DNA of 64,000 nt from Pseudomonas frederiksbergensis (GTDB lineage Bacteria > Pseudomonadota > Gammaproteobacteria > Pseudomonadales > Pseudomonadaceae), in the NCBI RefSeq assembly GCF_900105495.1, contig NZ_FNTF01000002.1, positions 4,704,501 through 4,768,500 of the forward strand. The letters run 5' to 3'. A program made the position numbers and the translations under genes. Positions 8,349 to 18,134 of this stretch are shown here, piece by piece; position 1 is the stretch's first letter; every line of letters starts with the position of its first letter. Below the pieces are notes generated by a model. It ran no database searches. It was not told where the DNA came from and saw nothing but the letters and a program-made list of their open reading frames with translations.

Positions 8349-9014
8349 TCACTCCATATCATCGATATGTCGATATTCGGCCTGTAACTCGGCAGCCATC
8401 ACCTTAGCCCGCCCAAGCCGGATCGGCCCGCGTTCGATGTCGATCAGCAGCCCCTGACAATCAAGCGCCGGCAACATCGACCAGTCCTTCAACCGGCCAT
8501 CGGTCACCAGCAACAAGCGCTGCCGTTCCGCCGGAAAACGTTTCTGCCTGACCGCCAGCCAGCGCCCCGCCTCACCCAGCGCCGCCAGCAACGGCGTACC
8601 CCCGCCGGCTCCCAGCCCATCTAACCAATTGCGCAAACCCGCGGAAGCTTTCAACCCTTGCACTTGCCATTTCGGCACATGTCCACTGGCCGTGAGCAAC
8701 GCCAGACGTACACGCTGCCGATAGGCATCGTCGAACAATTGCGCGAGCAAGCCCTTGGCATCGCTCAACGCCTGATGGCGGCGAGTTGAAGCCGAGGCAT
8801 CAACGATCACCAGCCACAGTTCGTGGGGCGAGCGAGTGCGCAGGTGAAACAAGACATCGTCGCGTTGACGCGGACGACCGTTCAGCAAGGTGCCGGGCCA
8901 ATTGATCGAGCCGCTGCGCGCTGCGTGACGTTTACCCTGTTTGCCGTTGTCCAGCCGTCCGGCCCGGGGTCTGGCATTCGCCCCCGCGTCAGATCGAGGG
9001 CGAATGCCTAGGGC
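8349..9014 (-). CDS. chlD: ChlD-like VWA domain, probably made by -1 frameshift from chlI
   Basis: This frame encodes a von Willebrand A domain of the magnesium/cobalt chelatase D type, with the MIDAS motif as VDASAS (within LWLVIVDASASTRRHQAL) and later GGGTPLL and VTDGR. The open frame continues upstream past the chlI stop with a conserved basic linker (GKQGKRHAARSGSINWPGTLL) but has no ATG or GTG. The only ordinary initiator is a TTG at 8888 inside that region. A -1 slip at 9014-9020 would join it to ChlI, giving 331 + 221 = 552 residues, the usual size of a ChlD. It would act as the partner of the AAA+ ring and CobN in cobalt insertion. If frameshifting does not occur, the TTG start would give a 179-residue VWA protein. 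Confidence 0.8.
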   Translation of the reverse strand, partial: ALGIRPRSDAGANARPRAGRLDNGKQGKRHAARSGSINWPGTLLNGRPRQRDDVLFHLRTRSPHELWLVIVDASASTRRHQALSDAKGLLAQLFDDAYRQRVRLALLTASGHVPKWQVQGLKASAGLRNWLDGLGAGGGTPLLAALGEAGRWLAVRQKRFPAERQRLLLVTDGRLKDWSMLPALDCQGLLIDIERGPIRLGRAKVMAAELQAEYRHIDDME

Positions 9015-9020
9015 TTTTTT
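8973..9020 (-). other. Candidate -1 programmed ribosomal frameshift site (A_AAA_AAG plus stem-loop)
   Basis: On the minus strand the chlI frame reads cca aaa aag ccc tag. Positions 9020-9014 are the heptamer A_AAA_AAG, in register with chlI and identical to the dnaX slippery site. Five nucleotides later begins a perfect 11-bp stem, GGCATTCGCCC (9008-8998) with GGGCGAATGCC (8983-8973), around a 14-nt loop. The chlI TAG (9010-9008) lies at the stem base. Slipping back one base enters exactly the VWA frame. I see no Shine-Dalgarno-like booster just upstream. Confidence 0.75.
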
Positions 9021-10006
9021 GGCCAGCTCGGCACGTCACGTCGGGCACCCACCGGGAGCGCCTGAGCGGGCATTTCACCCCATTGGCCCTGGCCTTCGCT
9101 CGGGTTGGAATGTTGCGTAGAGGGCGGCTGATTTTGTTGCGGCGCCGGTGGCGATGACTCGCGACGGCGATGGCGCAAGGCAAACTCGGCAACGGCGTCG
9201 ATGTCTTCCTCGGCGATGGCACTCGCCCCGCGCCACGCGGCGTGGGCCCGTGCCGCGCGCAACCAGACCAGGTCGGCGCGCAAGCCGTCGACCCCGGCGG
9301 CAAAGCAGCGCTCGGTAATCTGCGCCAGCGCAAGATCGTCGAGCGGGATGCTGGCCAGCGTGCTGCGTGCTTTCTGGCAACGTTCGCGCAGCGACTGCTG
9401 TTGGCGTTCCCATTCGGCGCAGAAGCTGTGGGGATCGCTGTCGAAATCCAGCCGCCGCCGGATGATCTGGCCGCGCTCGACCGGTGCTGTGTGACCGCTG
9501 AGGGCGACGTTCAGGCCAAAACGATCGAGCAGTTGCGGACGCAGCTCACCCTCTTCCGGGTTCATGGTGCCGATCAGCACGAACTTCGCCGAATGCCGAT
9601 GGGAAATGCCGTCGCGCTCGATCAGGTTGGTGCCGCTGGCGGCCACGTCCAGCAGCAGGTCCACCAGGTGATCGGGCAATAAATTGACCTCATCAACATA
9701 GAGCACGCCGCCGTCGGCCTTGGCCAGTACACCGGGGGAAAACTGTGCACGACCCTCGCTCAGGGCGGCGTCCAGGTCGAGGGTGCCGACCAGTCGTTCT
9801 TCGGTGGCGCCAAGCGGCAAGGTGACGAATTGGCCGCTGGCGAGCAAGTCCGCCAGGCCACGGGCCAGCGTTGACTTGGCCATGCCGCGGGGGCCTTCGA
9901 TGAGCACGCCGCCGATTTTCGGGTCGATGGCGGTCAGGTAGAGGGCGAGTTTCAGATCGTCGGCGCCGACCACGGCGGAAAGCGGGAAATGGGGGGTGTC
10001 GGTCAT
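9008..10006 (-). CDS. chlI: ChlI-like AAA+ chelatase subunit
   Basis: This is a 332-residue MoxR/ChlI-class AAA+ ATPase. Walker A is GPRGMAKST (near residue 36), Walker B is GGVLYVDEVNLLPDHL, and sensor 1 falls in FVLIGTMNPEEGELRPQLLDRFG. The start at 10006 (MTDTPHFPLS) begins at the expected AAA+ edge; the longer frame to 10123 runs into a palindromic repeat. With CobN encoded upstream, it is most likely the small subunit of an aerobic cobaltochelatase working in place of CobS. The C-terminal 40 residues are a Pro/Gln-rich linker of the kind that joins the AAA+ and VWA domains in ChlD. That supports this product and the frameshifted one coming from one gene. Confidence 0.88.
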   Translation of the reverse strand: MTDTPHFPLSAVVGADDLKLALYLTAIDPKIGGVLIEGPRGMAKSTLARGLADLLASGQFVTLPLGATEERLVGTLDLDAALSEGRAQFSPGVLAKADGGVLYVDEVNLLPDHLVDLLLDVAASGTNLIERDGISHRHSAKFVLIGTMNPEEGELRPQLLDRFGLNVALSGHTAPVERGQIIRRRLDFDSDPHSFCAEWERQQQSLRERCQKARSTLASIPLDDLALAQITERCFAAGVDGLRADLVWLRAARAHAAWRGASAIAEEDIDAVAEFALRHRRRESSPPAPQQNQPPSTQHSNPSEGQGQWGEMPAQALPVGARRDVPSWPKKP

Positions 10007-10034
10007 GTCGGGTCTCGTTTGTGGTCGGTAATGT

Positions 10035-10142
10035 GATCGTTCCCACGCTCTGCGTGGGAATGCAGCCCGGGACGCTCTGCGTCCCAAGAGCCGAACGCGG
10101 AGCGTCCGTTGAGGCATTCCCACGCGGAGCGTGGGAACGATC
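10035..10142. repeat. Palindromic repeat, GATCGTTCCCACGC family
   Basis: It begins GATCGTTCCCACGCTCTGCG and ends with the inverse GTGGGAACGATC, with two inner copies of GGACGCTC-type arms. It fills the cobN-chlI gap and touches the cobN stop codon. Other copies are at 15461-15571, 44411-44523 and 55182-55285, with a half element at 25173-25203. Confidence 0.85.
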
Positions 10143-10145
10143 CGG

Positions 10146-13100
10146 CTAACTGTCTTCTTCGATGTCCAGCAACAAATTCTCCAGAGCCTCGCGATACTCG
10201 CCAGGCGCCTTCCACATCCCCCGCTGCTGCGCCTCCAGCATCCGCTCGGTCATGTCACGCAACGCATGCGGATTATGCTCACGAACAAAATCCCGGGTCG
10301 CGGGGTCCAGCAAATACGCATCCGCCAGCAACGCGTACTGGTGATCGTCGATCAGCTGCGTGGTAGCGTCGAAGGCAAACAGGTTATCGACCGTCGCCGC
10401 CAGTTCAAACGCGCCTTTATAGCCGTGGCGCTTCACGCCGTCTATCCACTTCGGATTGGCTGCCCGCGAGCGAATCACCCGGTTCAGCTCTTCCTTCAAC
10501 GTGCGAATCTTCGGCAGGTCCGGCTGACTGTGATCGCCATGGTAACTGGCCGCCGCTTCACCGCTGAGGCTTTCCACCGCCGCGAGCATGCCGCCCTGGA
10601 ACTGGTAGTAGTCGTTGGAATCGAGCAAGTCGTGTTCGCGGTTGTCCTGGTTTTGCAGCACAGCCTGAACCTGGCTCAAGCGCTGAGCGAACTGCGCTCG
10701 CGCCGCGGTGCCTTCGTCAGAACCGCCGTAAGCGTAGCCGCCCCAGTTCAGATATACCTCGGCCAGGTCGTCGCGGCTTTGCCACAGACGACCATCGATG
10801 GCGCCCTGCACGCCCGCGCCGTAAGCACCGGGTTTGGCACCAAAGATGCGCCAACCGGCCTGACGCTTGGCTGCCTCTTCATCCAGCCCCGATTGCATTA
10901 ACGCTTCGCGCTCGGCACGCACCTTGGCGGCCAAGGGGTTGAGGTCGTCCGGCTCATCGAGGGCGGCGACCGCTTGCACGGCGGCGTCGAACAGGCGGAT
11001 CAGGTTGGCAAAGGCATCGCGGAAGAATCCGGAGACGCGCAAGGTCACGTCCACGCGCGGACGGTCAAGCAGACTCAGCGGCAGAATCTCGAAGTCGTCG
11101 ACCCGTTGACTGCCGGTGGCCCAGACCGGCCGCACGCCCATCAGCGCCATGGCCTGGGCGATGTCGTCTCCTCCGGTGCGCATGGTCGCGGTGCCCCACA
11201 CCGACAGGCCGAGCTGGCGCAGGTGATCGCCGTGGTCTTGCAGGTGTCGCTCAAGAATCAGGTTGGCCGACTGGAAACCGATACGCCATGCGGTGGTGGT
11301 CGGCAGGTTACGCACGTCCACCGAATAGAAGTTGCGCCCGGTCGGCAGCACGTCGAGCCGTCCGCGACTCGGCGCACCGCTGGGGCCGGCCGGCACGAAG
11401 CGGCCGCTGAGGGCGTCGAGCAGACCGCGCATTTCCGCCGGACCGCAGGCGTCCAGCCGTGGCGCGACGACTTCGCGCAGGTTGTCGATGATCGCGCTCA
11501 CGTCAGACCAACCTACCTCCTGTGGGAGCGGGCCTGCTCGCGATAGCGGTGGGTCAGTCATATCAATGTTAGCTGTCACACCGATATCGCGAGCAGGCTC
11601 GCTCCCACAGGGGTCGGGTTTGGCTTGAGGTTGGTTCACCGTTTGGGAGATCAGATGAGCGGCGAACAGTTCCAGACGTTCGCGGGTATCACCGGCTGTG
11701 CGCCAGACTTCATCGGTGAGGGTTTGCAGTTCAGTCGGACGTGGCCCGGTCCAAGGTTCGGCGAGCGCGCAATCCAGCGGATCGAAGCCCAGCGTGAACG
11801 CTTTGGCCAGGGCTCGCAGCAGACTCGATTGTGCACCGCGCCCATCGCCTCGCGGAATGCGCAACAACGCCAGTAAGGTGTCGATGCGCAAGCGCCCGGT
11901 CGGGGACTCGCCAAACACATGCAGGCCGTCGCGAATCTGCGACTCTTTCAAGTCGCACAAATAGGTGTCCAGACGCGGCAACCAGATCGCCGCATCGGCC
12001 TCGCTGTCGAGTTTTTCGTCCAGTTGCAGTTCGCGGTCGATGTGCGTCTCGCGCACCAGTTGCAGGATGTCGCGCTGCAATTCCCGGGCACGGCGCGGAT
12101 CGAGCAATTGCGCTTCGTAATACTCGTCGGCGAGTAATTCGAGGTTGCGCAACGGGCCGTACGTTTCGGCGCGGGTTAGCGGCGGCATCAGGTGATCGAT
12201 GATCACCGCTTGCGTACGGCGCTTGGCCTGTGCGCCCTCGCCCGGGTCGTTGACGATAAATGGATAGATGTTCGGCAGCGGACCGAGCAGCGCATCCGGC
12301 CAGCAATGCTCCGACAGCCCGACGCCTTTGCCCGGCAACCATTCGAGGTTGCCGTGCTTGCCGACGTGGATCACCCCGTGGGCGCCGTAGGTGTTGCGCA
12401 ACCAGAAATAGAACGCGAGGTAACCGTGTGGCGGCACCAGGTCCGGGTCGTGATACACCGCGCTCGGATCGACCTGATACCCCCGCGCCGGTTGAATCCC
12501 GACGAAGGTCAGGCCAAAGCGCAGCCCAGCGATCATCATTCGCCCGCCACGGAACATCGGGTCGCTTTGCGGCGAGCCCCAACGTTCCAGCACGGCTTGG
12601 CGATTGGATTCGGGCAAGGCGTCGAACATCAGGTTGTAGTCGTCCAGCGCGAGGCTTTGCATACACGGGCGCTGGTCGAGGGTGTCGAGGTCATTGCTGA
12701 CGCCGCCGAGTAATTGCTGGATCAACGCGGTGCCGCTATCAGGCAACTCGGCCGGCAGCGGATAACCTTCTTCATGCAGCGCACGCAGGATGTTCAGCGC
12801 CGCGGCCGGAGTGTCGAGGCCGACACCATTGCCGATGCGCCCGTCGCGGGTCGGGTAGTTGGCGAGGATCAGGGCGATGCGTTTTTCAGCGTTGGGCACT
12901 CGCGCCAGATCAATCCAGCGTCGCGCCAGCTCAGCGACAAAATCCATGCGCTCAGGTTGCGGCCGGTAGCAGACCACATCTGACTGACTGCGCTCGCTGC
13001 GCCAGGCCAGGTCCTTGAAACTGATCGGCCGGCTGATGATCCGCCCGTCCAGCTCCGGCAGTGCGATGTGCATCGCCAAGTCGCGGGGACCGAGGCCTTG

Positions 13101-14012
13101 TTCGCTGGCGCGCCAACCGGGTTCATTGTCTTGGGCGCAGATCGCCTGGATCACCGGGATATTGCGGCGAAACGGTCGCAAATGCGGCGCTTCGGGGCTG
13201 GATTGGGCGAAACCGGTGGTGTTGAGAATGACGCCGGCCTCGACTTCATCCAGCCAGTCCTCGACCACCGTCAGGCAGCCGGGCTCTTTCAGACTGGCCA
13301 CGGCAATCGGCAACGGGTTCAACCCCGCCGCCTGCAAACGCTGGCAGAAAATATCGATGAAACCGGTGTTGGCCGCCTGCAAATGCGAGCGGTAGAACAG
13401 CACCGCCGCCACCGGTTGACCGGCCTGCCAGTCGGCTTGCCAATCCTTCAGTTCAGCGGGGCTTTTGTGCGGGTGGTAGATCGCCGTGCGCGGCAGGGTT
13501 TGCGGCTCGGCCCAAGCGTAGTCGCGTTCCAGCCAACGATTGGCAAGGCAGCGGAAAAAATCCAGGGCATTGCTCATGCCGCCCTGACGCAGAAACTGCC
13601 AGAGCCGGTCGCGGTCTTGCGCGTCCACCGTGCTCAGGTCGCTGAGTTCCGGGTCCGGGCGGTCATCGCCGGGCACCAGAATCAGCTGCACGCCGCGCTC
13701 CGACAGTTGCACCAGACGCTCGACGCCGTAACGCCAATAGGCGATGCCGCCGTGCAGCGAGATCAGAATCACCTTGGCGTGGCGCAGCACTTCGTCGACA
13801 TACAAGTCGACCGAGGCGTGATTCTGCACCTGCATCGGATTGGCCAGACGCACGCTGGGGTAATCGTCGGGCAACTGCTGCGCGGCTTCAGCGAGCAGCG
13901 CCAGGCTGGAGTCGCCGCTGCACAGGATCACCAGCTCGGCGGGGGTTTGTCCAAGGTCGGCAATGTTGTCATCCGACACGAAACCGCCGGGCTGGGTCCT
14001 GAGCAGGTGCAT
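10146..14012 (-). CDS. cobN: Cobaltochelatase large subunit CobN, with in-frame REPIN insertion
   Basis: The 1288-residue product matches the large subunit that inserts Co2+ into hydrogenobyrinate a,c-diamide, an ATP-dependent step in aerobic cobalamin synthesis. Recognisable family segments include HVGKHGNLEWLPGKG, TGRNFYSVDVRNLPT and WGGYAYGG. The start MHLLRTQPGG lies 3 bp after the cobW stop, so the two are co-transcribed behind the cobalamin riboswitch. Residues of about 801-831 are the translation of a complete REPIN (11521-11609), read as CGSEPARD through SRAGPLPQ. This adds about 30 residues to a linker just before a conserved block (VSAIIDNLREVVAPRLD). The frame stays open, so the protein is probably still made. 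Confidence 0.95.
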   Translation of the reverse strand: MHLLRTQPGGFVSDDNIADLGQTPAELVILCSGDSSLALLAEAAQQLPDDYPSVRLANPMQVQNHASVDLYVDEVLRHAKVILISLHGGIAYWRYGVERLVQLSERGVQLILVPGDDRPDPELSDLSTVDAQDRDRLWQFLRQGGMSNALDFFRCLANRWLERDYAWAEPQTLPRTAIYHPHKSPAELKDWQADWQAGQPVAAVLFYRSHLQAANTGFIDIFCQRLQAAGLNPLPIAVASLKEPGCLTVVEDWLDEVEAGVILNTTGFAQSSPEAPHLRPFRRNIPVIQAICAQDNEPGWRASEQGLGPRDLAMHIALPELDGRIISRPISFKDLAWRSERSQSDVVCYRPQPERMDFVAELARRWIDLARVPNAEKRIALILANYPTRDGRIGNGVGLDTPAAALNILRALHEEGYPLPAELPDSGTALIQQLLGGVSNDLDTLDQRPCMQSLALDDYNLMFDALPESNRQAVLERWGSPQSDPMFRGGRMMIAGLRFGLTFVGIQPARGYQVDPSAVYHDPDLVPPHGYLAFYFWLRNTYGAHGVIHVGKHGNLEWLPGKGVGLSEHCWPDALLGPLPNIYPFIVNDPGEGAQAKRRTQAVIIDHLMPPLTRAETYGPLRNLELLADEYYEAQLLDPRRARELQRDILQLVRETHIDRELQLDEKLDSEADAAIWLPRLDTYLCDLKESQIRDGLHVFGESPTGRLRIDTLLALLRIPRGDGRGAQSSLLRALAKAFTLGFDPLDCALAEPWTGPRPTELQTLTDEVWRTAGDTRERLELFAAHLISQTVNQPQAKPDPCGSEPARDIGVTANIDMTDPPLSRAGPLPQEVGWSDVSAIIDNLREVVAPRLDACGPAEMRGLLDALSGRFVPAGPSGAPSRGRLDVLPTGRNFYSVDVRNLPTTTAWRIGFQSANLILERHLQDHGDHLRQLGLSVWGTATMRTGGDDIAQAMALMGVRPVWATGSQRVDDFEILPLSLLDRPRVDVTLRVSGFFRDAFANLIRLFDAAVQAVAALDEPDDLNPLAAKVRAEREALMQSGLDEEAAKRQAGWRIFGAKPGAYGAGVQGAIDGRLWQSRDDLAEVYLNWGGYAYGGSDEGTAARAQFAQRLSQVQAVLQNQDNREHDLLDSNDYYQFQGGMLAAVESLSGEAAASYHGDHSQPDLPKIRTLKEELNRVIRSRAANPKWIDGVKRHGYKGAFELAATVDNLFAFDATTQLIDDHQYALLADAYLLDPATRDFVREHNPHALRDMTERMLEAQQRGMWKAPGEYREALENLLLDIEEDS
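11521..11609. repeat. REPIN inside the cobN coding sequence
   Basis: A complete 89-bp element (TGTGGGAGCGGGCCTGCTCG and its inverse CGAGCAGGCTCGCTCCCACA around a central spacer) lies wholly within cobN and leaves the frame open. All other copies of this family in the window are intergenic. Confidence 0.9.
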
Positions 14013-14015
14013 GGC

Positions 14016-15089
14016 TTAAACGCTGAGCGCAGCGCGCAATTGCGCTTCAAGCAAAGTGGCGTCCAGCTTCTGGCCGATCAATACCAGACGCGTGGTACGC
14101 GCTTCGTCGGCGCCCCACTGACGGTCGAAATGCTTGTCGAAACGCGTGCCCACGCCCTGGATCAGCAGGCGCATCGGCTTGTTCGGAATCGCCGCGAAAC
14201 CTTTGACGCGCAAAATGCCGTGCTGGACCACCAGTTGAGTCAGCGCGTCCAGCAGCAGGCTTTCGTCGGCTTGCGGCAGTTCGATGGAGATGGAGTCGAA
14301 TGCGTCGTGGTCATGCTCATCGTGATGGCCGTCTTCATCTTCATGGTGGTGATCGTGATGGCTGTGACGGCTGTCGATGTGTTCTTCGGAACCGGCGCCG
14401 AGGCCGATCAGCACGTCCAGTGGCACGCGACCGCTGCTGGCTTCGATGACTTTCACCGCTGGCGGCAGTTCTTCGGCGACTTCCAGGCGCACGCGGGCCA
14501 GGTCTGCGGCGCTGATCAGGTCGGCCTTGTTGAGGATCACCAGGTCGGCGCTGGCCAGTTGGTCGGCGAACAGTTCGTGCAGCGGCGATTCGTGATCCAG
14601 GTTCGGGTCGAGTTTGCGCTGGGCATCGACCTGGTCCGGGAACGCCGCGAAGGTGCCGGCGGCGACCGCAGGGCTGTCGACCACAGTGATGACCGCGTCA
14701 ACGGTGCAGGCGCTGCGGATTTCCGGCCACTGGAAGGCTTGCACCAGCGGTTTTGGCAGGGCCAGGCCCGAGGTTTCGATGAGGATGTGGTCGAGGTCGC
14801 CGCGACGGGCGACCAATTCGCGCATCACCGGGAAGAATTCTTCCTGAACGGTGCAGCACAGGCAGCCGTTGGCCAGTTCGTAGACGCGGCCGTTGGCTTC
14901 TTCTTCAGTGCAACCGATGGAGCACTGCTTGAGGATTTCGCCGTCGATACCCAGCTCGCCGAACTCGTTGACGATCACCGCAATGCGACGGCCCTGAGCG
15001 TTGTCGAGCATGTGCCGCAGCAGCGTGGTTTTGCCCGAGCCGAGGAAGCCGGTAACGATGGTGACGGGGAGTTTGGCCAGTGTTTTCAT
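14016..15089 (-). CDS. cobW: CobW-type metallochaperone GTPase
   Basis: This 357-residue G3E-family GTPase has Walker A GFLGSGKTT (residues 13-21) and the metal-binding motif NGCLCCTVQ. The guanine-specificity motif is NKAD in VILNKADLI. A His/Asp/Glu-rich loop at about residues 265-290 (SRHSHHDHHHEDEDGHHDEH) would bind metal. CobW proteins are thought to deliver Co2+ to the CobN chelatase. The ATG at 15089 (MKTLAKLPVTIVTG) starts right at the GTPase fold; the upstream extension to 15176 lies in the riboswitch leader and is rejected. It heads the operon with cobN and chlI/chlD. Confidence 0.93.
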   Translation of the reverse strand: MKTLAKLPVTIVTGFLGSGKTTLLRHMLDNAQGRRIAVIVNEFGELGIDGEILKQCSIGCTEEEANGRVYELANGCLCCTVQEEFFPVMRELVARRGDLDHILIETSGLALPKPLVQAFQWPEIRSACTVDAVITVVDSPAVAAGTFAAFPDQVDAQRKLDPNLDHESPLHELFADQLASADLVILNKADLISAADLARVRLEVAEELPPAVKVIEASSGRVPLDVLIGLGAGSEEHIDSRHSHHDHHHEDEDGHHDEHDHDAFDSISIELPQADESLLLDALTQLVVQHGILRVKGFAAIPNKPMRLLIQGVGTRFDKHFDRQWGADEARTTRLVLIGQKLDATLLEAQLRAALSV

Positions 15090-15204
15090 CGGATGCCCTT
15101 TGGCAAGGTGGCGGGCATACGGGACGACAATCGCAGCGGCGGATGCACGCGCGCAAGAGTTCCGCCACCGGATCACCCCGCCCGGTTGTAGTGAGAATCT
15201 GTGT

Positions 15205-15395
15205 CGAGGCAGGTCTCCTGGCTGACGGTGTGCTGGGCTTGTGGGCCTGGCATTCGCTGCGCCTTCCCGCGAACCCGTTGCACAGGGTTTGCAGTGGCGT
15301 GGCAGCGAACAGCACCGTTCACAGTTGCGGGGGCAGCCGCGGCATCGACCGCGTTCCCTTCTTAGCTTCGGCAGACACCGAAGAACCTCGAAAGC
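15205..15395 (-). promoter_or_regulatory. Cobalamin riboswitch upstream of cobW
   Basis: On the minus strand the B12 box AGCCAGGAGACCTGCC is an exact consensus match (plus coordinates 15208-15223). Upstream are the other conserved parts: GGTTC near 15385, AAGGGAAC, and GCCGCGGCTGCCCCCGCAAC. It lies about 118 nt before cobW. Adenosylcobalamin binding is expected to reduce expression of cobW-cobN-chlI/chlD. Confidence 0.9.
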
Positions 15396-15460
15396 GCAAG
15401 GCTACGCATCGTGTGGGGGCGGGTCAATGTTGACCTGAATTCTGTGGTGCCCCCTTTGAT

Positions 15461-15571
15461 GATCGTTCCCACGCTCTGCGTGGGAATGCCTCAACGGACG
15501 CTCCGCGTTCGGCTGTGAAAGGGACGCGGAGCGTCCCGGGCTGCATTCCCACGCAGAGCGTGGGAACGATC
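15461..15571. repeat. Palindromic repeat between the two cobalamin riboswitches
   Basis: This is a full copy of the GATCGTTCCCACGC family, symmetric at both ends, and it separates the divergent riboswitch leaders. The 884-bp gap 15090-15973 is filled by the two riboswitches, this repeat and short flanks that must hold the two divergent promoters, which I could not pinpoint. Confidence 0.85.
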
Positions 15572-15626
15572 AACTCAAACGAGAACCCTTGCCAATTGAC
15601 GCCCAACCCCCGCCCATGCTCTCCTA

Positions 15627-15850
15627 CACGCCTTGTTACGGGTGCCCTTCACAGGGTGAAACGGGAAACCGGTGAATCATGTGCTTTACTCTAAAGCCAT
15701 GTCAGTCCGGTGCTGCCCCCGCAACGGTAAGCGAGCGAAGCGTCAGATCCACTGTGCCAGCAGTTCGGCATGGGAAGGTGATGCTTGCAGGTCAAGGCGA
15801 AAGCCAGTGCCCCTCGTGAGCCCGGAGACCGGCCCGCAACACGAAGTGAC
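15627..15850 (+). promoter_or_regulatory. Cobalamin riboswitch upstream of cbtB
   Basis: Conserved parts in order are GGGTGCCC (15640), CAGGGTGAAACGGGAAACCGG, CCGGTGCTGCCCCCGCAACGG, and a B12 box variant AGCCCGGAGACCGGCC (15819-15834). It is the classical order for a cobalamin riboswitch. Downstream, CCCGC/GCGGG (about 15877-15892) and CCTCTGCG/CGCAGGGG (about 15900-15925) can form hairpins that may be the expression platform. It should control cobalt import and the genes behind it. Confidence 0.92.
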
Positions 15851-15973
15851 CATTACGATCACTGAATAACAAACCCGCGGTGGGCGGGCGCTGTTTGAAC
15901 CTCTGCGTGCCCGACTCGCAGGGGTCTTCCATGCGCTCTATATCACCCCGCTGACAGACCAGAGGGAAGCGCC

Positions 15974-17387: not shown

Positions 17388-18134
17388 ATGACCGTCTACT
17401 TCATTGGCGCAGGTCCCGGCGACCCGGAACTGATCACCGTCAAAGGCCAACGGCTGATTCGCAGCTGCCCGGTGATCATCTACGCCGGCTCCCTGGTGCC
17501 CGCCGCCGTGCTGGAAGGCCATTGCGCCGAACAGGTGGTCAACAGCGCCGAACTGCACCTGGAACAGATCATCGAGCTGATCAAATCCGCCCACGCCAAG
17601 GGCCAGGACGTGGCCAGGGTGCACTCCGGCGATCCGAGTCTTTATGGTGCAATTGGCGAGCAGATCCGCTACCTGCGCGAACTCGACATCCCGTTTGAAA
17701 TCATTCCCGGCGTCACGGCCACGGCGGCCTGCGCGGCACTGTTGGGTGCGGAACTGACGTTACCCGACGTATCGCAAAGCGTGATCCTGACCCGCTATGC
17801 CGACAAAACCGTGATGCCCGCTGGCGAAGAGCTTGGCAGCCTGGCGCAGCACGGGGCGACGATGGCGATTCATCTGGGGGTCAATCATCTGGAGAAGATC
17901 CTGGCCGAATTGCTGCCGCATTACGGCGCGGATTGCCCGATCGCGGTGATTCACCGGGCGACCTGGCCGGATCAGGATTGGGTGGTGGGGACGTTGGCGG
18001 ACATTGCCGCGAAGGTTGAAGCCAAGGGGTTTCGGCGCACGGCGTTGATTCTGGTGGGTCGGGTTTTGGGTAGCGATCACTTCAGTGAATCGTCGCTGTA
18101 TCGCGCGGGGCACGCGCATCTCTACAGACCCTGA
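17388..18134 (+). CDS. cobM: Precorrin-4 C11-methyltransferase CobM
   Basis: This 248-residue S-adenosylmethionine-dependent tetrapyrrole methylase begins MTVYFIGAGPGDPELITVKG, the family's first SAM-site motif. It later shows VARVHSGDPSLYGA and IIPGVTATAACAALLG. It methylates C11 of precorrin-4 to give precorrin-5 in the aerobic corrin pathway. AGGAACCG precedes the ATG. It follows cobE by 81 bp and is probably in the same riboswitch-controlled transcript. Confidence 0.95.
   Translation: MTVYFIGAGPGDPELITVKGQRLIRSCPVIIYAGSLVPAAVLEGHCAEQVVNSAELHLEQIIELIKSAHAKGQDVARVHSGDPSLYGAIGEQIRYLRELDIPFEIIPGVTATAACAALLGAELTLPDVSQSVILTRYADKTVMPAGEELGSLAQHGATMAIHLGVNHLEKILAELLPHYGADCPIAVIHRATWPDQDWVVGTLADIAAKVEAKGFRRTALILVGRVLGSDHFSESSLYRAGHAHLYRP

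Follow-up and report, generated by a model that had tools for sequence, protein, structure and literature searches.

The closest described systems are the frameshifted chlD genes (fs-chlD) of the magnesium-chelatase cluster, in which 23 genes with a −1 arrangement were reported, Pseudomonas included (Antonov 2013, PMC3711429). For three genes of this cluster, reporter cassettes with runs of 11, 9 and 7 A, none of them A6G, showed 63, 40 and 10% frameshifting in E. coli (PMC3711429). A later account places A_AAA_AAR in Pseudomonas and others, describes A_AAA_AAG as highly shift-prone in E. coli and prints a stem for P. protegens (Atkins 2016, PMC5009743). The published genes are annotated as two adjacent genes (PMC3711429; PMC5009743), and fs-chlD has been proposed to supply both CobN partners, with P. 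aeruginosa among the species listed (Kuznetsov 2022, PMC9227772). The passages of this literature that deal with fs-chlD held no measurement of frameshifting in a Pseudomonas. Given what these three papers report, a frameshift in Pseudomonas chlD is already known in substance.

The stretch of Pseudomonas frederiksbergensis DNA analysed here (64,000 nucleotides, “the window”) carries a cobW-cobN-chlI/D cluster on the minus strand, with the ChlI and VWA halves of the last gene in different frames. The features of the cluster are listed in the order in which it is read.

15191..15405, minus strand: cobalamin riboswitch ahead of cobW-cobN-chlI/D (RF00174, 102.4 bits)
14016..15092, minus strand: CobW (TIGR02475, 530.9 bits)
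10146..14012, minus strand: CobN, large cobaltochelatase subunit, 1288 aa (TIGR02257, 1741 bits; PF02514)
9008..10006, minus strand: 0-frame ChlI-like AAA+ ATPase, 332 aa, from ATG at 10006 to TAG at 9010-9008; predicted small-subunit product
9014..9020, minus strand: slippery heptamer A_AAA_AAG, in phase, read in the sequence; in 138 of 141 same-genus genomes
8349..9014, minus strand: −1 frame with linker and VWA domain, 221 aa, stop at 8349
9008..9010, minus strand: TAG stop of the 0 frame, one codon past the heptamer; at equal distance in 135 of 138
8998..9008, minus strand: 5′ arm of the putative stimulatory stem, GGCATTCGCCC, 5 nt past the heptamer
8973..8983, minus strand: 3′ arm of the putative stimulatory stem, GGGCGAATGCC, pairing with 9008-8998; coordinated change at pair 5
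8886..8888, minus strand: TTG, first candidate independent start of the VWA frame, codon 43 of the −1 frame; TTG in 84 of 138

The ChlI frame ends TGG CCA AAA AAG CCC TAG, and the A6G at 9020-9014 is the only one within 8349-10006. The −1 frame is open throughout (ORF reading, minus strand), and the predicted ChlI-linker-VWA fusion comprises 552 residues. The original prediction had described this geometry: A_AAA_AAG in the correct register at the end of a 332-residue ChlI frame, a VWA domain reached by a −1 shift, a fusion of 552 residues, a perfect 11-bp stem 5 nt beyond the heptamer, and CobN encoded upstream behind a cobalamin riboswitch. All of these elements were recovered at the coordinates listed. 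The ChlI frame matches TIGR02442 (positions 88-337), TIGR02030, PF17863 and PF07728, and the VWA frame matches PF13519 at residues 68-173 and TIGR02442 at positions 458-641. The two halves are collinear on the 641 positions of TIGR02442, and either half alone falls below the cut-off of this model. TIGR02442 describes an in-frame ChlI-VWA fusion, whereas here the halves lie in different frames and the linker is shorter. A scan for promoters and terminators gave no signal above shuffles.

As far as the relevant passages describe the fs-chlD cluster (PMC3711429; PMC5009743; PMC9227772), the locus agrees with it in gene family, in the −1 direction of the shift, in the A_AAA_AAR heptamer, in the downstream stem and in the genus Pseudomonas. 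The stem printed for P. protegens shares the form GGCATYCGCCC...GGGCGRATGCC with that of the window (PMC5009743). The run here is A6G, in contrast to the tested cassettes of 11, 9 and 7 A (PMC3711429), and nothing was different in kind. The locus combines overlapping −1 halves, an arrangement common to 138 of 141 genomes with the window included, with an in-phase A-rich heptamer, a downstream structure, and cobN without cobS or cobT. On these sequence grounds, the gene is very probably an fs-chlD that makes a 332-aa I-type and a 552-aa D-type subunit by −1 slippage. The original prediction had also stressed that slippery site and stimulator are both explicit here; they are both present, but they were already explicit in print, in the P. 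protegens stem (PMC5009743).

We searched 149 genomes, taken as Pseudomonas because of their named relatives (the nearest shows 98% identity across the VWA half), a sample that may not cover every group called Pseudomonas. The VWA half was present in 142 of these genomes and the junction was read in 141, G076 being left out because its VWA hit starts at a contig edge. Alignment of the junction in other pseudomonads had been suggested as a check, and A_AAA_AAG proved to be conserved: the −1 arrangement with the heptamer in phase occurs in 138 of the 141 genomes. The run comprises 6 A in 136 of these and 7 A in the other two, and the ChlI-VWA regions of the 138 contain no further A6G. In another collection, of 80 named Pseudomonas loci, 79 carry the heptamer, and the remaining one (L095) has 5 A.

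The surroundings of the heptamer are conserved as well. The codon before it is CCA in 99 junctions, GCA in 31, ACA in 4, CAA in 2, and TCA and CTA in one each; these encode six different amino acids, yet the third base is A in all 138. Yet within the ChlI parts, CCA accounts for only 11.6% and GCA for only 8.4% of the codons for their respective amino acids. The codon after the heptamer starts with CC in 131 of 138. Exactly one sense codon separates the heptamer from the 0-frame stop in 135 of 138 (9008-9013 in the window), and the same distance is found in three loci of three other families of the class; this one-codon spacing may itself matter. The three exceptions among the 141 have in-frame or altered junctions. 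Two of them, L113 and L219, have 5 A each, and because cobN is also in several pieces in their genomes (G034 and G052) we consider both to be probable sequence errors. The third, L220, is from a genome that is 86% complete, and its ChlI hit is split.

Downstream of the heptamer, a 5-nt spacer, CCCTA (9013-9009), leads into the arms GGCATTCGCCC and GGGCGAATGCC, which form 11 perfect pairs (9008-8998 with 8983-8973). The fold of the junction region beats 200 of 200 dinucleotide shuffles (z −2.95). When ten pairs were scored across 138 sequences, with the 3′ arm positioned by best complementarity (a rule that favours pairing, and by which 123 of the 138 arms land at the same offset), 1316 of 1380 cells were standard-paired, against a maximum of 1267 in 500 partner shuffles. 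The complete ten-pair stem is present in 92 of 138, and the same arm-placing rule leaves three loci, L196, L222 and L223, with weak stems.

Coordinated change is clearest at pair 5, which is C-G in 77 sequences, U-A in 44, U-G in 16 and G-C in one, and is C-A in none of the 138. On a tree computed by FastTree with the element left out, a model of dependent change at this pair fits better (LR 34.8, p ~5e-7; our own implementation, with some rates at their bounds). Against this, parsimony assigns 18 changes to pair 5, most of which (13) are one-sided between C-G and U-G, whereas four are between C-G and U-A, and one is to G-C. The original prediction had named compensatory changes in the stem as a sign of function, and the pair counts and the tree test at pair 5 both point to coordinated change. 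In PMC5009743, by comparison, the passage on this structure describes its sequence as not strongly conserved, whereas the stem here changes in a coordinated way within the genus.

By free energy alone the stem of the window is not exceptional, as 473 of 5000 synonymous recodings of the same peptide fold as well. Because this null, based on minimum free energy, was not significant, we relied instead on the length of the contiguous anchored stem and on the covariation. The contiguous anchored stem averages 11.5 pairs, compared with 5.6 under synonymous recoding of the −1-frame peptide, and the test gives P < 0.05 in 97 of 138 loci rather than in all of them.

The P. frederiksbergensis genome has two tRNA-Lys(UUU) genes. 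No tRNA-Lys(CUU) gene was found in it by a pattern allowing up to 2 mismatches, a pattern that an unusual sequence would escape. Across the genus, the tRNA-Lys(UUU) motif occurs in 149 of 149 genomes and the CUU motif in one of 149, where ARAGORN finds no tRNA at the site. The only lysine-tRNA motif supported is UUU, the dnaX-type situation of a sole tRNA-Lys(UUU). The likeness to E. coli dnaX extends to the heptamer A_AAA_AAG, the downstream hairpin, the single tRNA-Lys, and the use of one gene for two products of different length, as described in parts of PMC3711429 and PMC5009743. The long product of dnaX comes from the 0 frame and the short one from the shift, whereas the predicted roles at chlI/D are reversed. 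Moreover, dnaX has an upstream Shine-Dalgarno stimulator, whereas at chlI/D such an element is not conserved: 48 of 138 loci have an SD-like word within the preceding 20 nt, and the sequence of the window there reads TGACGTG.

These elements suggest how the two products could arise. A ribosome translating the ChlI frame would come to stand on A_AAA_AAG with a strong hairpin 5-6 nt downstream, at the mRNA entry. A fraction of the ribosomes would then slip one base back, both lysine tRNAs re-pairing from AAA-AAG to AAA-AAA, and the slip would be aided by the UUU-anticodon tRNA-Lys being the sole kind. Shifted ribosomes would produce the 552-aa ChlI-linker-VWA protein, the putative medium (D-type) subunit, and unshifted ones would read one codon more, stop at the TAG and release the 332-aa AAA+ protein, the putative small (I-type) subunit. 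In cobalt insertion, both products would work together with CobN from the upstream gene. We infer that slippage takes place in the cell with some efficiency and that both products assemble jointly with CobN. The comparison supports the view that nearly all of the sampled genus retains this single cellular programmed −1 frameshift, together with an explicit stimulator whose pairs covary and with a suitable tRNA set. Given the conserved signal, the covarying stimulator and the fitting tRNA set, laboratory pseudomonads should be good hosts for measuring this frameshift.

We examined the co-occurrence of the gene with cobaltochelatase components in the same 149 genomes. CobN is present in all 142 genomes with a VWA half, this genome included. 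Among the seven genomes without a VWA half, five are also without CobN, and G060 and G082 have only partial CobN-family matches. The original prediction had noted that no cobS or cobT was seen, and this extends to the whole genome, where we found no CobT-family match and where the only match to the CobS model is weak (26.7 bits versus a cut-off of 558.55). CobT-family matches occur in 8 of the 149 genomes (7 over the cut-off). They accompany the frameshifted gene in five genomes (G015, G038, G055, G063 and G105), and in G041 and G042 a CobT-family match is present with neither CobN nor a VWA half. Thus, CobT-family matches do not mirror the frameshifted gene in the genus.

The neighbourhood of the gene and its co-occurrence with CobN fit a role as CobN partner. 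Where the original prediction had both CobN partners made from one gene, the comparisons support the programmed frameshift; that both products serve CobN is what we infer from the gene neighbourhood, the co-occurrence and the lack of CobS and CobT here. This role is qualified by the five genomes with a CobT-family match beside the frameshifted gene and by in-frame fused relatives (below) that seem to manage with no separate small subunit. As a separate observation, G060, which is without fs-chlD, encodes a divergent CobN-like protein of 1447 aa (L224, 6429-10772, minus strand), and none of the five neighbouring genes that were scanned is a chelatase partner. At G060:C2:159431-161130, a CobT-family match adjoins a CobS-model match, the latter below the cut-off.

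An arrangement of this kind could also be read as two separate genes, in which translation of the VWA protein begins at TTG 8888 or through re-initiation coupled to the ChlI stop, heptamer and hairpin being incidental. The VWA match, which begins at residue 68, indeed lies downstream of TTG 8888, and TTG occupies codon 43 in 84 of 138 relatives, but the remaining 54 have another codon there. Ahead of the VWA match, the window has two TTG codons, at 8888 and 8852, and no ATG or GTG. Within the −1 frame, GTG and ATG first appear from 8810 on, inside the VWA part; the earlier statement that the VWA frame lacks ATG or GTG is therefore correct for the part ahead of the domain, but not for the whole frame. 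In a translationally coupled pair the second start is close to the first stop, whereas only one of the 138 loci has an ATG, GTG or TTG of the VWA frame as close as ~10 nt to the ChlI stop. Moreover, all three codons are missing from the whole interval between junction and VWA domain in 12 of 138, and from the part up to the W39 motif in 91 of 138. The −1-frame residues upstream of codon 43 are conserved, W39 in 138 of 138 and G19, G27 and G35 at 95-99%. The linker shows only a mild third-position excess (0.43, versus 0.595 in the VWA domain), and for this reason our argument rests on the conserved residues. Because these residues are conserved upstream of the candidate starts and the starts are not, separate initiation is a poor explanation. 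We rejected an independent start at TTG 8888 as well as translational coupling, and consider a pair of separate genes improbable.

A fusion could arise instead by transcriptional slippage, with RNA polymerase adding an A in the run and some mRNAs encoding the fusion in frame. One extra A would yield the same fusion, and L226, from another family of the class, has a run of 10 A. However, transcriptional slippage sites are often homopolymers of at least 8 or combinations of two shorter ones, according to a passage in PMC3711429, whereas the run here measures 6 A in 136 loci and 7 A in the other two. We judged this route very unlikely on run length, and the conserved phase, the 3′ CC context, the covarying stem and the UUU tRNA-Lys would likewise favour ribosomal over transcriptional slippage. 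That the break between the frames is a sequencing error or the mark of a decaying pseudogene is hardly credible. Three of the 141 relatives (L113, L219 and L220) have in-frame or altered junctions and one of the 80 named loci has 5 A, but 138 of 141 assemblies, which come from different species, share the arrangement and conserve both halves, and the broken cobN in G034 and G052 suggests that it is the exceptions L113 and L219 that contain errors.

Relatives elsewhere in the class were compared as well. A search of 274 genomes of the class returned 19 that matched, the window's own among them. From the 18 other loci or genomes, three −1 arrangements and six in-frame fusions were kept and nine were left out: L229 was unclassified (no VWA hit by script), in G204 (L240, L244) the VWA half is spread over two frames, and seven (L236-L239 and L241-L243) have a weak ChlI match or none. 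The three −1 arrangements, L226 (10 A), L230 (7 A) and L234 (6 A), belong to three families, and in each the stop lies one codon past an in-phase heptamer. In the six others, L227, L228, L231, L232, L233 and L235, ChlI and VWA are fused in frame. CobN is encoded in each of these six genomes alongside a single ChlI-like gene (E up to 1e-15), and a CobS match above the cut-off occurs in G199 (L231) only. Internal slippage of the dnaX kind was considered for these fusions and set aside: the scanned linkers of five contain no in-phase slippery heptamer, and the gene of the sixth, L233, is 22% GC with many A runs, too A-rich to judge. L233 comes from G166, a genome of just 0.4 Mb in the same class, which keeps this A-run-rich in-frame fusion plus CobN.

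The in-frame fused relatives offer a direct comparison for the purpose of the short product. As five of the six have no other ChlI and no CobS above the cut-off, a free small subunit may not be essential, and a separate one may not be strictly required everywhere, although the sample is small. With the same caveat of a small sample, the in-frame fusions bear against taking the published proposal, in which fs-chlD supplies both partners, in its strict sense. Neither these fused relatives without a small subunit nor the genus-wide covariation appears in the passages on fs-chlD in the three papers, and we do not claim them as unpublished.

It is possible, though rather doubtful, that the frameshift is real but mainly serves the ratio or the co-translational assembly of the fusion, instead of supplying a missing essential small subunit, since some CobN-bearing relatives have an in-frame fusion only. 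The genomes of L227, L228, L232 and L235 speak for this: they have CobN but neither a second ChlI (E up to 1e-15) nor a CobS above the cut-off, and the scanned linkers of the four fusions contain no in-phase slippery heptamer. However, these are few cases, and in two of the four genomes (G341 and G174) there are weak matches to the CobS model. The small subunit could come there from a divergent AAA+ protein, from proteolysis or from other recoding, and the in-frame fusion genes may not act as cobaltochelatase subunits at all. Tentatively, the frameshift at chlI/D might set the ratio of free AAA+ to VWA-bearing subunit in a mixed ring, with compensatory stem changes maintaining it under selection.

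When examining the surroundings of the cluster, we noted a second cobalamin riboswitch at 15623-15851 of the window (plus strand), divergent from the first. It precedes a gene for the cobalt transporter CbtA (PF09490, 16063-16896) and one for a tetrapyrrole methylase (17388-18134). Inverted repeats (cgttcccacgctctgcgtggg...), which resemble REP elements, occur between the two riboswitches (15460-15580) and in the gap between chlI/D and cobN (10030-10150). Those at 10030-10150 could alter the amount of transcript that reaches chlI/D.
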